A stretch of 64,000 bases of DNA from Luteimonas terrae (lineage in GTDB: Bacteria; Pseudomonadota; Gammaproteobacteria; Xanthomonadales; Xanthomonadaceae): the NCBI RefSeq assembly GCF_004358165.1, contig NZ_SMTG01000002.1:1054001-1118000 (forward strand), written 5' to 3'. Positions 45,916-57,605 of the stretch are shown in pieces (position 1 is the stretch's first letter; each line of letters begins with the position of its first letter). Position numbers and translations under genes: made by a program. A model generated the notes under the pieces. The model did no database searches, had not been told where the DNA came from, and worked only from the letters and a program-made list of their open reading frames with translations.

Positions 45916-46327
45916 CTACCTCATCTCTGTGCGCTCGCCACAGACGATGCGCGCAGGCGCGCACCTGCGCCATCCGGAGAATGACCCGGCAGGTGTGGGA
46001 ATCGGCAGCGGATACAGCGCGAGGAAACTGCCTGCGCCTGCTGACGAACGGATCACGTTCCGTTGTCAGGATCGAGGCAGTGCAACGCACGACCTGTTGA
46101 AGCGTGTCATCGCAAACGCCCAGCGCGCTGCCCTGGGATCCTCCCGCGATCGAATCTCGGGGCCGGATTCAGATCACGCACATGGATCCCATCGTTCGCC
46201 GGGATGACGGTTCTGAGTGCGAAGCTTTCCCAAACATCCCGTCGCCGCAGCGAACGCTGGGGCCCATTTTGAGCTTCGCGCGATGCGGGTCGCGACTCGT
46301 GATCCGACAATCCGGGCGTGGCGACGC
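45916..46327. other. gene-poor region with degenerate CGTCATCCC repeats
   Basis: No credible gene. It contains a diverged CGTCATCCC-family arm at 46182-46209 (ATGGATCCC ... GGGATGACG). A second relative at about 46250-46285 (CAGCGAACGCTGGGGCCCAT then TTTGAGCTTCGCG) resembles the arm of the element at 12111. The inverted segments GCGAAGCT and AGCTTCGC frame the second copy. Confidence 0.6.
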
Positions 46328-46380
46328 TCAGCGCGCCGGCAGGTAGATCATCGGAGCGACCGGCTTGCCGTTGTAGCGGG
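46328..46380 (-). pseudogene. duplicated 3' end of nlpD
   Basis: 53 bases match the last 53 bases of nlpD (46479-46531) at 50 positions. Read on the minus strand it encodes RYNGKPVAPMIYLPAR and a stop codon, against RYNGKPVDPMIYLPAR in the real gene. The 98 bases between the two copies are not nlpD-like and hold a strong hairpin (46384-46422, GACGATGCCG / CGGCATCGTC). It is too short to be functional: a remnant of a local duplication. Confidence 0.75.
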
Positions 46381-46478
46381 TGAGACGATGCCGTGCGCGG
46401 TCCACTGGACCGCGGCATCGTCGAACGCACGGCGCGCTGCGCCGGGTTGGGGATCCGCCCGTGAGGAGACGGGTCGTC

Positions 46479-47228
46479 TCAGCGCGCCGGCAGGTAGATC
46501 ATCGGATCGACCGGTTTGCCGTTGTAGCGGATCTCGAAGTGCAGCATGTCGCGCGCCGCACCGGTGCGGCCGAGTTCGGCGATCTGCTGGCCGGCCCGCA
46601 CGCGCTCGCCTTCGTTGACCTTGCGCACGCGATTGTGGCCGTACGCGGTCAGCCACTGCTCGTCGTGCTTGATGATGATCAGCTCGCCGTAGCCGACGAG
46701 GCCGGCGCCGGAATACACCACCACGCCATCGGCCGAGGCGTTGACCGCCTGGCCAGCGGTGCCCGCGATGTCGAGGCCCTGCTTGGTCGGGTCGTTGGCG
46801 ACGTAGCGCCCGACGATCTGACCGGCCGTCGGCCACTGCCAGCGGAAGGGACTGTTGACCGGCGGCGCGGCGGCCGGCTGCGGTGCCGACTGGGTCGGTC
46901 GCACGGTGGGACGCTGCGCAGTCGTGCTGCCCGAACTCGCCGGGCGCGCGGGCGCCGCACCGCCGCCGCCGGGATACAGACGCAGGCGCTGACCGGGGTA
47001 GATCGTGTACGGCGCGCGGATGTTGTTCCAGGTCGCCAGATCCAGCGCGCTGATGCCGTTGTTCGTCGCGAGGCGGTAGAGGGTGTCGCCGCGTTGCACG
47101 GTCACCGACTGACCGGGCTTGGGCGTGGATGCCGGGCGCGTCGCACTGCTCCCGCCTTCGCGGATCACCGTGCTGGTGCCGCAGGCCGTCATCAGGCCCA
47201 CCGCGAGCAACACCCAGAACTTCCTCAT
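46479..47228 (-). CDS. nlpD: NlpD-like LysM/degenerate M23 lipoprotein
   Basis: 249-residue outer-membrane lipoprotein (LMTAC lipobox). A LysM domain (VTVQRGDTLYRLATNNGISA to IYPGQRLRLY) is followed by a Pro/Ala/Thr linker and an M23 domain. In the M23 domain the metal-binding histidine region reads KQGLDIAG rather than HxGxD, while TAYGHN and LHFEIRYNGKPV are kept. This is the degenerate pattern of NlpD, which activates the amidase AmiC rather than cutting peptidoglycan itself. It is coupled to yqaA by ATGA. No rpoS follows. Confidence 0.9.
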   Translation of the reverse strand: MRKFWVLLAVGLMTACGTSTVIREGGSSATRPASTPKPGQSVTVQRGDTLYRLATNNGISALDLATWNNIRAPYTIYPGQRLRLYPGGGGAAPARPASSGSTTAQRPTVRPTQSAPQPAAAPPVNSPFRWQWPTAGQIVGRYVANDPTKQGLDIAGTAGQAVNASADGVVVYSGAGLVGYGELIIIKHDEQWLTAYGHNRVRKVNEGERVRAGQQIAELGRTGAARDMLHFEIRYNGKPVDPMIYLPAR

Positions 47229-56125: not shown

Positions 56126-56391
56126 ATCCACTCCTGCGCATGCGGCCGTGCCGCAGACTTCTGACTTGTTGGGAATTGGTTCTGGTATCTGCCGACCGCC
56201 CGCCACTTCCCGCGGCAGACGACGGAACGGACTAGTTTCGCCGATTCGGGCCCGGCCCGCCACCGCCGCCGATGGGCGCCCGTGCGGGATTGCGCCCTGC
56301 ATGGCCGGGCATGCGCGATGCGCGCGAGGGATACCGGGGACCGGAAAAGAGAAATCGGCCGACGCGCCTTCGAGGGGCGCGATCGACGGCC

Positions 56392-56479
<88 letters not shown>

Positions 56480-56507
56480 ATCGTGCGCGGCTGCAGCCGG
56501 CGGCGGC

Positions 56508-56513
56508 ATTCTA
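56508..56513 (-). promoter_or_regulatory. possible -10 element of tRNA-Leu
   Basis: TAGAAT on the minus strand, 29 bases before the tRNA-Leu 5' end. It would allow the gene its own promoter, separate from the tRNA cluster beyond the repeats. No good -35 hexamer was found at 16-18 bases. Confidence 0.35.
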
Positions 56514-56861
56514 GTCCAAGGTCGACCGCAGCTGTCGCGCCTGCAGCCTAAAACCTGTCGGCGCACGTGGCGAAACCAGAGGCCTCGTCGAGCTGGAGCC
56601 GTGCGAACGCCATGCGCGTTGCGCGTGGCCGAACCTGTGCAGCAGGCGAACCGCAGGTTCGAATCCCGCGTCGAACGCCGGAAACGAAAATGCCCGGCCG
56701 AAGCCGGATATTTCGTGGAACTGCTGGGCCGTCAAGGGTGAGCACGGGCAGCTGCGAACCACCGGTTCGCGTCCGTGCGAACGCCATGCGCGCTGCGCAT
56801 GGCCGGACCTGCGCAGCAGGCGAACCGCAGGTTCGAATCCCGCGTCGAATGCCGGAAACGA

Positions 56862-56887
56862 AAATGCCCGGCCGAGGCCGGGCATTT
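56862..56887 (-). terminator. terminator-like hairpin in the middle 174-bp unit
   Basis: 12-bp stem AAATGCCCGGCC / GGCCGGGCATTT with a 2-base GA centre; on the minus strand it ends in CATTTTCGTTT. A degenerate copy (two substitutions) lies at 56688-56713 in the distal unit. Confidence 0.7.
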
Positions 56888-57035
56888 CGTGGAACTGGTG
56901 GGCCGTCAAGGGTGAGCACGGGCAGCTGCGAACCACCGGTTCGCGCCCGTGCGAACGCCATGCGCGCTGCGCATGGCCGGACCTGCGCAGCAGGCGAACC
57001 GCAGGTTCGAATCCCGCGTCGAATGCCGGAAACGA

Positions 57036-57061
57036 AAATGCCCGGCCGAGGCCGGGCATTT
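57036..57061 (-). terminator. terminator hairpin directly after tRNA-Lys
   Basis: Same hairpin as at 56862, placed 8 bases beyond the tRNA-Lys CCA end. It is the first potential end of the Pro-Arg-His-Lys tRNA transcript. Confidence 0.75.
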
Positions 57062-57069
57062 CGTGGAAC

Positions 57070-57145
57070 TGGTGGGCCGTCAAGGATTCGAACCTTGGAC
57101 CTATTGATTAAGAGTCAACTGCTCTACCAACTGAGCTAACGGCCC
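57070..57145 (-). tRNA. tRNA-Lys (anticodon CUU)
   Basis: 76 nt with encoded CCA. Acceptor stem GGGCCGT / ACGGCCC, D arm AGCTCAGTTGGTAGAGC, anticodon loop CTCTTAA giving CUU, T arm CAAGGTTCGAATCCTTG. Last tRNA of the operon; its 3' 16 nt are copied in the tandem repeats that follow. Confidence 0.97.
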
Positions 57146-57220
57146 GATGAAGCGGGCGCGCATTGTAATGCAACTCTGCGCGCTTGGGCAACACCTTTCG
57201 AGTGTTACCCGGTGAAGCAA

Positions 57221-57298
<78 letters not shown>

Positions 57299-57331
57299 AC
57301 AGAAACTGAAACTCTTTCGTACCGCCGGAAG

Positions 57332-57408
57332 TGGCGCGCCCGACAGGAATCGAACCTGTAACCCCCGACTTAGAAGGTCGGTGCTCTATCCGGTTGAGCT
57401 ACGGGCGC
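57332..57408 (-). tRNA. tRNA-Arg (anticodon UCU)
   Basis: 77 nt with CCA. Acceptor GCGCCCG / CGGGCGC, anticodon loop CTTCTAA giving UCU, T arm ACAGGTTCGATTCCTGT. Confidence 0.96.
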
Positions 57409-57444
57409 CAGTGCGTCGAATGATAAACGCGGCTGGTACCCGTT

Positions 57445-57521
57445 TGGTCGGGGTAGAGGGATTCGAACCCCCGACATCCTGCTCCCAAAGCAGGCGCGCT
57501 ACCAGACTGCGCTATACCCCG
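57445..57521 (-). tRNA. tRNA-Pro (anticodon UGG)
   Basis: 77 nt with CCA. Acceptor CGGGGTA / TACCCCG, anticodon loop TTTGGGA giving UGG, T arm GGGGGTTCGAATCCCTC. First gene of the Pro-Arg-His-Lys operon. Confidence 0.96.
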
Positions 57522-57577
57522 CCGGAACAAGCGGTCGAACCTGACCCCGACACGGCCAGGGCCGTACGAAGGGCGCA

Positions 57578-57605
57578 ATTGTACGGCCGCCGGAGGCGGT
57601 GTCAA
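57578..57605 (-). promoter_or_regulatory. strong sigma-70 promoter of the tRNA operon with stringent-type discriminator
   Basis: On the minus strand TTGACA (57605-57600) and TACAAT (57583-57578) are 16 bases apart. They are followed by TGCGCCC, the GC-rich discriminator typical of stable-RNA promoters repressed by ppGpp/DksA. It lies 57 bases before the tRNA-Pro 5' end. Confidence 0.85.

Follow-up and report, generated by a model that had tools for sequence, protein, structure and literature searches.

The closest described counterpart of the locus studied here is rtT of Escherichia coli, reportedly first described in 1991 by Bosl and Kersten. In the tyrT/tyrV region of strain MG1655, we find the copied tRNA end TTCCCCCACCACCA at six junctions with spacings of 175, 119, 178, 178, and 178 bp. 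In Salmonella, rtT has been described as a 175-bp VNTR (PMC2658671), and its similarity to a BIME cluster has been mentioned elsewhere (PMC2965389). Three further systems are relevant. REPs are given a length of 20–40 bp in one account, which places GTAG and CGTC REPs at gene ends, where they sometimes supply the stop codon, and which describes the CGTC kind as lacking a dedicated transposase (PMC3733652). For IS200/IS605 elements and REP hairpins, guide bases 5' of the hairpin foot are described as interacting with the cleavage site (PMC6006769). Inserts of integrative elements that use tRNA genes (attL/attR) are described as restoring the tRNA 3' end and leaving a fragment of it on the far side (PMC9897764).

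An array of similar layout lies behind a lysine tRNA gene of Luteimonas terrae, within the 64,000-nucleotide stretch of DNA that was analyzed (the window). Tandem Repeats Finder placed it at positions 56599–57085 of the window with a period of 174, 2.8 copies, 96% matches, and a score of 904, and the copies in ungapped register begin at 56599, 56773, and 56947; the array is genuine and greatly exceeds chance expectation. On the minus strand, ARAGORN listed tRNA-Pro, tRNA-Arg, tRNA-His, and tRNA-Lys(CTT), followed 590 bp past the latter by tRNA-Leu, and the array lies in this gap. Together, the two programs confirmed the period-174 array after tRNA-Lys that a preliminary description of this DNA had proposed. 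Its claim that each unit repeats the tRNA-Lys 3' end including CCA holds for one extra copy: the 16-mer CCTTGACGGCCCACCA occurs on the minus strand within the tRNA-Lys gene (57070–57085) and again, exactly, at 56896–56911, whereas the other copy agrees at 15 of 16 positions and has lost its CCA (Table 1). The terminator-like hairpin noted in each unit was seen as well, but the array runs on the minus strand, so the hairpin comes after the CCA, which corrects the frame in which the units had been read. The arms pair perfectly over 12 bp in the first two hairpins and imperfectly in the third. A consensus terminator scan of the minus strand listed only this third hairpin, where 1.6 sites per shuffle are expected for the region, and the label "terminator-like" therefore rests on stems and T-rich tails.

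In the sense of transcription, the observed unit opens with the tRNA end TTGACGGCCCACCA (the last 14 nt of tRNA-Lys) and continues through the terminator-like hairpin, the segment GGGATTCGAACCT, which is an antisense T arm, and a small hairpin. It closes with a 75-nt core of two hairpins ending in TCACCC, behind which the next tRNA-end copy begins. The biological unit thus described extends on the minus strand from the T-arm/acceptor junction (57083) to ..TCACCC (56910). Both strands of the array are open for 190 aa, and the period of 174 is a multiple of 3. A promoter-like site predicted before tRNA-Pro is perhaps the promoter of the operon (Table 1). The consensus scan also predicted a site at 57191–57162 on the minus strand, directly before tRNA-Lys, so tRNA-Lys may also be transcribed alone.

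Table 1 Features of the tRNA-Lys array and of the R1 copy at the M23 peptidase gene, in window coordinates. R1 is the 75-nt core described in the text; X' and X are the upstream and downstream copies of a gene end.
Feature	Position	Strand	Evidence or remark
X, 51-nt duplicate of M23 peptidase gene end, starts exactly past core	46327..46377	-	
R1 core at 3' end of M23 peptidase gene	46378..46453	-	56.7 bits
Junction-complementary GCGGATC(CCC), reverse complement of GATCC|GC, M23 copy	46449..46458	-	
X', upstream 51-nt copy of M23 peptidase gene 3' end	46478..46528	-	
R1 core, decayed or truncated, unit 3	56557..56635	-	33.7 bits, E 0.0045
Antisense T arm, unit 3	56655..56667	-	
Terminator-like hairpin, imperfect, unit 3	56688..56713	-	listed by consensus scan
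tRNA-Lys 3'-end copy no. 3, CCA broken (CCCAGCA)	56722..56737	-	15/16, single change
R1 core, unit 2	56736..56809	-	89.8 bits
Antisense T arm, unit 2	56829..56841	-	
Terminator-like hairpin, unit 2	56862..56887	-	perfect 12-bp arms
tRNA-Lys 3'-end copy no. 2, CCA intact	56896..56911	-	exact
R1 core, two hairpins, TCACCC end, unit 1	56910..56983	-	93.7 bits
Antisense T arm GGGATTCGAACCT (junction-complementary), unit 1, ~69 nt past junction	57003..57015	-	
Terminator-like hairpin after tRNA, unit 1	57036..57061	-	stems (perfect 12-bp arms); absent from consensus scan listing
Insertion junction	between 57084 (..GGTTCGAATCC) and 57083 (TTGACGGCCCACCA)	-	
T-arm segment AGGTTCGAATCC, 5' of junction, complementary to antisense segment	57084..57095	-	12 nt, 100%
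tRNA-Lys (CTT), intact host gene	57070..57145	-	ARAGORN, Rfam
Promoter-like site TTGACA-16-TACAAT before tRNA-Pro	57578..57605	-	consensus scan, predicted only

The preliminary description had named lack of conservation of the unit next to tRNA-Lys as evidence that would count against it. The opposite was found, because the array recurs behind tRNA-Lys in relatives, namely other Luteimonas, Thermomonas, and other Lysobacterales MAGs. An array query matched all 52 genomes of the genus, weakly in G011 and G039, where the match may be to another tRNA. Among the best 30 array-matching loci, which were those read for units, 12 hold at least one full unit of 174–177 bp, 17 hold none (some with remnants), and one is the divergent locus L025; the number of full units per locus ranges from 0 to 3 within this one genus. 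The best matches in the remaining 22 genomes are short, at no more than 120 nt of query length (76–120 nt in 20, 56 nt in G011, and unlisted for G039), so no full unit is expected there. Units from one genome share 96.4% identity (9 pairs) and units from different genomes 81.9% (181 pairs, maximum 95.4), a sign of homogenization or recurrent duplication inside genomes. Across a species collection, the exact pattern of element end plus tRNA end occurs in 19 stretches. ARAGORN places 12 of them behind tRNA-Lys, seven on contigs already analyzed and five beyond the Luteimonas set (two Thermomonas, two other Lysobacterales MAGs, and one MAG named Xanthomonas); the seven stretches that lack tRNA-Lys are taken as chance matches. 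Two loci of the family sample, L217 and L229, likewise lie behind tRNA-Lys.

Two further observations concern this tRNA gap. At L025 (genome G019), the stretch between tRNA-Lys and tRNA-Leu holds another unit, 138 bp long, that closes with 25 nt of tRNA-Lys and lacks the R1 core; it is an independent duplication of tRNA end and hairpin. Within the array and on its other strand, ARAGORN also called a tRNA-Ser(GCT) at L011 (1488–1582, plus) and L216 (6152–6246, plus), which are the same locus. The call is presumably spurious, because the antisense T arm probably mimics such a gene, and a plus-strand tRNA in the unit was rejected since the call is confined to this locus.

The core of the unit belongs to a dispersed family, which we call R1. 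BLAST with the array, independent of any model, found a dispersed copy in the L. terrae genome (C5:184962, E 1.9e-9) and many matches across the genus. In an alignment of 25 cores, R1 comprises 75 nt and forms two hairpins, in which 11 of the 23 pairs show both-sided compensatory changes. The R1 model was built from these 25 cores, and nine of them are tRNA-Lys array units, including those of this window, so the scores by which the array belongs to R1, high for units 1 and 2 and low for the decayed unit 3 (Table 1), are partly a matter of construction. The family counts 28 copies in the L. terrae genome and is present in 46 of the 52 genus genomes (0 to 60 copies each) and in 183 of 247 sampled genomes of the family, representing 42 of 54 genera. 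Copies start variously, some with CGTCC and others with GGTCC, TGTCC, AGTCC, or GAACC.

At the ends of protein genes, the R1 core occurs in both orientations. Many copies are antisense, with TCACCC overlapping the apparent stop codon of the neighboring gene, and in several species an antisense copy lies over the apparent stop of the same gene (L065, L106, L107, L111, and L114; L084, L109, L115, and L116). Genes beside antisense copies have putative names, such as pstB, that derive from their C-terminal sequence. No gene-end duplication was seen at antisense copies in the genus and family samples. Genome G204 carries many near-identical R1 copies (L278–L293), which suggests recent amplification there; as these sit inside a larger composite repeat, the genome was rejected as a source of clean R1 boundaries. 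At L116 and L105, tandem partial R1 matches with a spacing of 81–84 bp stand beside a gene end.

A subset of R1 copies duplicates the end of the adjoining gene. Of 29 R1 loci inspected in the L. terrae genome, four show a direct duplication whose second copy begins exactly at the 3' edge of the core: two array units, an M23-peptidase gene (51 nt), and an FtsZ gene (about 28 nt). This count leaves out a 20-nt GC-rich repeat at L078 that also starts at the core edge. In the genus sample, 13 of 53 R1 copies reached a duplication score of at least 12, and 9 of these 13 begin within 2 nt of the edge. In the family sample, which consists of the top-scoring listed matches and is thus non-random, a score of at least 14 was reached by 18 of 66 copies from 60 loci, 17 of the 18 within 2 nt (12 loci). 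Pfam assigns the duplicated genes to glutamine synthetase, a LuxR-type response regulator, aconitase (genus set), FtsZ, and M23 peptidase; the names glnA, acnA, and ftsZ, which we presume for three of them, rest on these family matches. The tRNA-Lys array falls into the same duplicating class, with a copy of the gene end on both sides and the second at the 3' edge of the core.

Empty and occupied sites were observed at the glutamine synthetase gene, where 11 of the 20 sites read are empty and 9 are occupied. Occupied sites have the order X'-spacer-core-X, in which X' completes the gene. Where occupied and empty alleles can be aligned (G007 and G043 vs. G037; G033 vs. G045; G046 vs. G012 and G014), X is continuous with the sequence found downstream of the gene when the site is empty. 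The empty site of the L. terrae genome reads ACTCACCC|GCTCGAG, so the target can itself hold the TCACCC end.

In most gene-end-duplicating R1 copies, the bases directly 5' of the core are the reverse complement of the copy's own junction. The glutamine synthetase copies have GCGGATG for the junction CATCC|GC, two response-regulator variants have GGACAGGATG for CATCC|TGTCC and GCTCAGGATG for CATCC|TGAGC, the aconitase copy has CGGAAGT for ACTTCC|G, the M23 copy has GCGGATC for GATCC|GC, and L240 has GGGGCGAC for GTCGCC|CC. In the tRNA-Lys unit, the corresponding segment is the antisense T arm, which lies ~30 nt 5' of the core and ~69 nt past the junction; the match spans 12 nt in the window, 12–15 nt at four other tRNA-Lys loci, and 9 nt at L229, and is absent at L217. 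Segments start 66–72 nt past the junction in most matching R1 copies, tRNA-Lys included.

This complementarity was spotted first and tested afterwards. For 24 R1 copies, the longest match averaged 8.1 nt to the own target vs. 5.1 nt to the targets of other genes. Taken by class (25 copies, 8 targets), the values were 7.45 for own and 4.99 for permuted targets, and the true pairing was the only one of 40,320 permutations to reach the former; when each class was represented by its worst copy, 152 of the 40,320 permutations reached the own-target score. Over 115 R1 copies of all kinds there was no general junction complementarity (5.8 vs. 5.3 nt); the idea that it characterizes every R1 copy was therefore rejected, and it belongs to the duplicating class alone. 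Within this class, complementarity fails at L144, L152, and L255 (glutamine synthetase), L264 (response regulator), L085 (ftsZ), and L217 (tRNA-Lys). Three segments (L255, L264, and the tyrT-tyrV copy) contain GGGTG, which fits the element end CACCC and not the target CATCC. We counted the failed copies, the GGGTG segments, and the ~30 nt between tRNA-Lys segment and core against the mobile-element reading developed below.

A similar segment is present in E. coli rtT. At MG1655 tyrT/tyrV, GGGGAAGGAT is a 10-nt complement of ATCC|TTCCCC and starts 73 nt past the junction in three of the 178-bp units, with matches that were reached by 0 to 0.2% of 500 shuffles. Weaker matches occur in the tyrT copy (8 nt at 70 nt; 5% of shuffles), the tyrV stretch (7 nt; 6%), and at the last junction (6 nt; 33%). 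The rtT-like architecture suggested in the preliminary description is thus borne out beyond what was claimed, by the junction position, the copied tRNA end, the unit length (174 vs. 178 bp), and the junction-complementary segment; the dispersed core R1, the antisense T arm, and the broken CCA of the last copy are additions to it. The search with the Rfam model that it had proposed gave no support for membership in RtT (RF00391), for which we required a covariance model score of at least 45 bits. The model had no match in the window or at L009, none was listed at E up to 10 in 56200–57600, and a general Rfam search of the array at E up to 10 yielded tRNAs and sub-threshold matches only. The R1 model had no match at the E. 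coli tyrT locus (best E 0.2). The rtT analogy is correct for architecture and wrong for Rfam membership; R1 and RtT are different families with one architecture.

Searched against 369 Gammaproteobacteria, the Rfam RtT model matched 55 genomes at E up to 1e-4, 23 of them above the curated score. A duplicated tRNA or tmRNA end was present in 27 of the 30 RtT loci fetched; none was found at L300 and L323, and at L315 the repeat is another sequence and the RtT match lies upstream of tRNA-Ser, not behind a tRNA. The junction test was restricted to the 27 loci with a TTCGA[AT]TCC junction (10 tRNA-Gln, 8 tRNA-Tyr, 8 tRNA-Ser, and 1 tmRNA), leaving out L306, L315, and L324. Complementarity is observed in RtT as a group: the match between the RtT start and the complement of its own junction averaged 8.22 nt vs. 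5.84 nt for other junctions (0 of 20,000), and 8.62 vs. 5.64 nt (0 of 20,000) with one locus per distinct target (n = 13). Individual rows differ, with at least 8 nt in 14 of 27 (best 17 nt, L312) and fewer than 8 nt in 13, including L302, L319, and L320 at 4–6 nt. The 14 rows with at least 8 nt have the start of the segment 35 to 107 nt past the junction, 6 of them at 66–74, so a fixed spacing is not general. As a general rule it was rejected, since it fits most matching R1 copies and E. coli rtT but not RtT broadly. Some changes in the RtT rows L299, L304, L307, L309, and L323 keep G-U pairs, which hints at pairing in RNA.

On balance, we consider it probable, with ample room for doubt, that the array arose when a small non-autonomous mobile element entered the tRNA-Lys 3' end after GGTTCGAATCC and was amplified in tandem. 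The inserted unit would consist of the gene-end copy X', a spacer, the junction-complementary segment, and the R1 core ending in TCACCC, and would be followed by the displaced native end X. Insertion would be harmless because X' completes the host gene, and since every unit would create at its end a fresh YCC|X junction resembling the first, the same site would be reusable, with tandem arrays arising. An element of this kind, 150–180 bp in length, would undergo cleavage and joining at YCC|X, brought into register by the internal segment that complements the junction, and would presumably be mobilized in trans. The complementary segment may act as a guide in cleavage and joining, as single-stranded DNA or RNA, somewhat like the guide bases of IS200/IS605. 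The insertion would carry or create the gene-end copy, leaving the host gene whole, and the regenerated junction would permit repeated insertion and recombination into tandem arrays. The hairpin at 57061–57036 is predicted to halt most transcripts ahead of the antisense T arm. No recent R1 transposition event was caught in the genomes analyzed. On moving to a new gene, the segment would need to change by copying from the target, and this is the weak point of the guide reading because a segment copied from the target is also what a copying scar predicts.

Such a scar is the main rival and, in our judgment, a rather unlikely one. Gene-end duplication and complementary segment would then be by-products of core insertion or copying, through fold-back template switching at replication forks, and the array, functionless, would later only grow and shrink by unequal recombination. 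Simple slippage fits both the similarity of units within genomes and the range of 0 to 3 full units in one genus, and the last array unit is decayed; moreover, a segment that differs per target is easier to obtain by copying from the target than by prior mutation, and its spacing varies in RtT. However, the same tRNA-Lys junction position occurs in several genera, RtT likewise keeps its position at tRNA-Tyr, -Gln, -Ser, and tmRNA, and most matching R1 copies share the spacing of 66–72 nt; random template switching should not yield recurrent junctions or spacings. We place the guide reading ahead of the scar on two grounds, a junction position common to both families and a spacing that is repeated among R1 copies; its case is weakened because RtT spacing varies. 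The preliminary description had read the locus as an rtT-type RNA gene, in which RNase P/E/T-type processing of read-through would release small stable RNAs with tRNA-like 3' ends. The rtT-type architecture, that of E. coli tyrT/rttR, is the part of this reading that stands, and the compensatory changes in the hairpins and the promoter-like sites before tRNA-Pro and tRNA-Lys are in its favor. It is nevertheless incomplete, because the 174-bp unit is a single representative of an element dispersed over gene ends, and a tRNA-tied RNA product leaves a core in both orientations at protein-gene ends unexplained. Little array transcript is expected, because a terminator-like hairpin follows directly after the tRNA and recurs in every unit, and Rfam RtT has no match; we regard an RNA gene as improbable.

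The remaining alternatives derive the repeats from known transposases or integrases. If R1 were a REP-like repeat that owed its mobility to a RAYT (TnpA-REP) transposase, as its paired hairpins with a short 5' tag, its location at gene ends, and inverted R1 pairs about 200 bp apart (L041, L093, and L099) could suggest, a Y1_Tnp gene might be expected to accompany it. Such a gene is present in 33 of 52 genus genomes. However, a profile search of the L. terrae genome found no match to Y1_Tnp, the number of R1 copies showed no association with Y1_Tnp presence in the genus (p 0.38; eight genomes have at least 10 R1 copies and no Y1_Tnp), and R1 was not found near 20 Y1_Tnp loci (best E 0.32). With no gene in the genome itself, no tracking, and no proximity, a RAYT as the driver of R1 is unsupported, though a past donor may have acted in trans. 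CGTC-tagged REPs, described as managing without a dedicated transposase, speak for the REP model, but REPs are put at 20–40 bp (PMC3733652) vs. 75 nt for the R1 core and about 150–177 bp for the duplicating unit, and we find a REP origin as improbable as an RNA gene. Finally, the repeated tRNA ends could be attachment-site remnants of a lost integrative element. Such elements commonly integrate at tRNA 3' ends and leave partial copies (PMC9897764), and L025, where the divergent unit of 138 bp includes 25 nt of tRNA end, would be in keeping with this. Yet the R1 core is part of the array units, and units of this type are found at unrelated protein genes with differing junctions, unlike the fixed site of one integrase, so that this origin is very improbable.

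The mobile-element reading turns a curiosity behind one tRNA into a testable rule: repeats behind a gene can be insertions of a dispersed element that copy the gene end, usually with a complement of the junction, and E. coli rtT conforms to this rule as well. Should the segment serve as a guide, it would define a compact insertion system directed by base pairing; if it is a scar, it would still explain the origin of gene-end tandem arrays and of false partial tRNAs. Annotation is affected as well, as in the spurious tRNA-Ser that ARAGORN called inside one such array (L011/L216). A literature search of titles and abstracts, with most subscription journals outside its scope, did not find R1 or RtT described as junction-matched mobile elements, and the passages cited above mention no junction-matched segments in rtT or in the repeats studied here. 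It is conceivable, and we offer it as a tentative idea that may well prove too broad, that R1 and RtT form one unrecognized class of tiny mobile elements in Gammaproteobacteria, with E. coli rtT as its first-known member. Their targets would be tRNA, tmRNA, and important protein genes, whose 3' ends they would enter and restore; an internal guide that pairs with the insertion junction would direct them to the site.

Compared with known systems, R1 resembles REP/BIME sequences as a dispersed palindromic repeat at gene ends, and differs in its longer core, its TCACCC end, and the existence of copies with a repeated gene end and a match to the junction they occupy. Its hairpins, preceded by junction-complementary bases that may act as guides, recall IS200/IS605; the R1 unit has no transposase gene, its complementarity of 7–15 nt spans or flanks the junction, and about 70 nt, occupied by the gene-end copy, separate junction and segment. 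As with integrative elements at tRNA genes (attL/attR), the insert in the array restores the tRNA 3' end and leaves a fragment on the far side (PMC9897764), but it is shorter than 180 bp, has no integrase, and its kind occurs at several different target genes. The nearest relative in design is E. coli tyrT/rtT. The Luteimonas array differs from it in core sequence and structure and in the terminator-like hairpin that each unit carries, and R1, unlike rtT, is also found at protein genes and in antisense. Both have the junction position GGTTCGAATCC|, a copied tRNA 3' end, and a junction-complementary segment, in hairpin-rich units of 174 and 178 bp, respectively, that occur in variable tandem copies.
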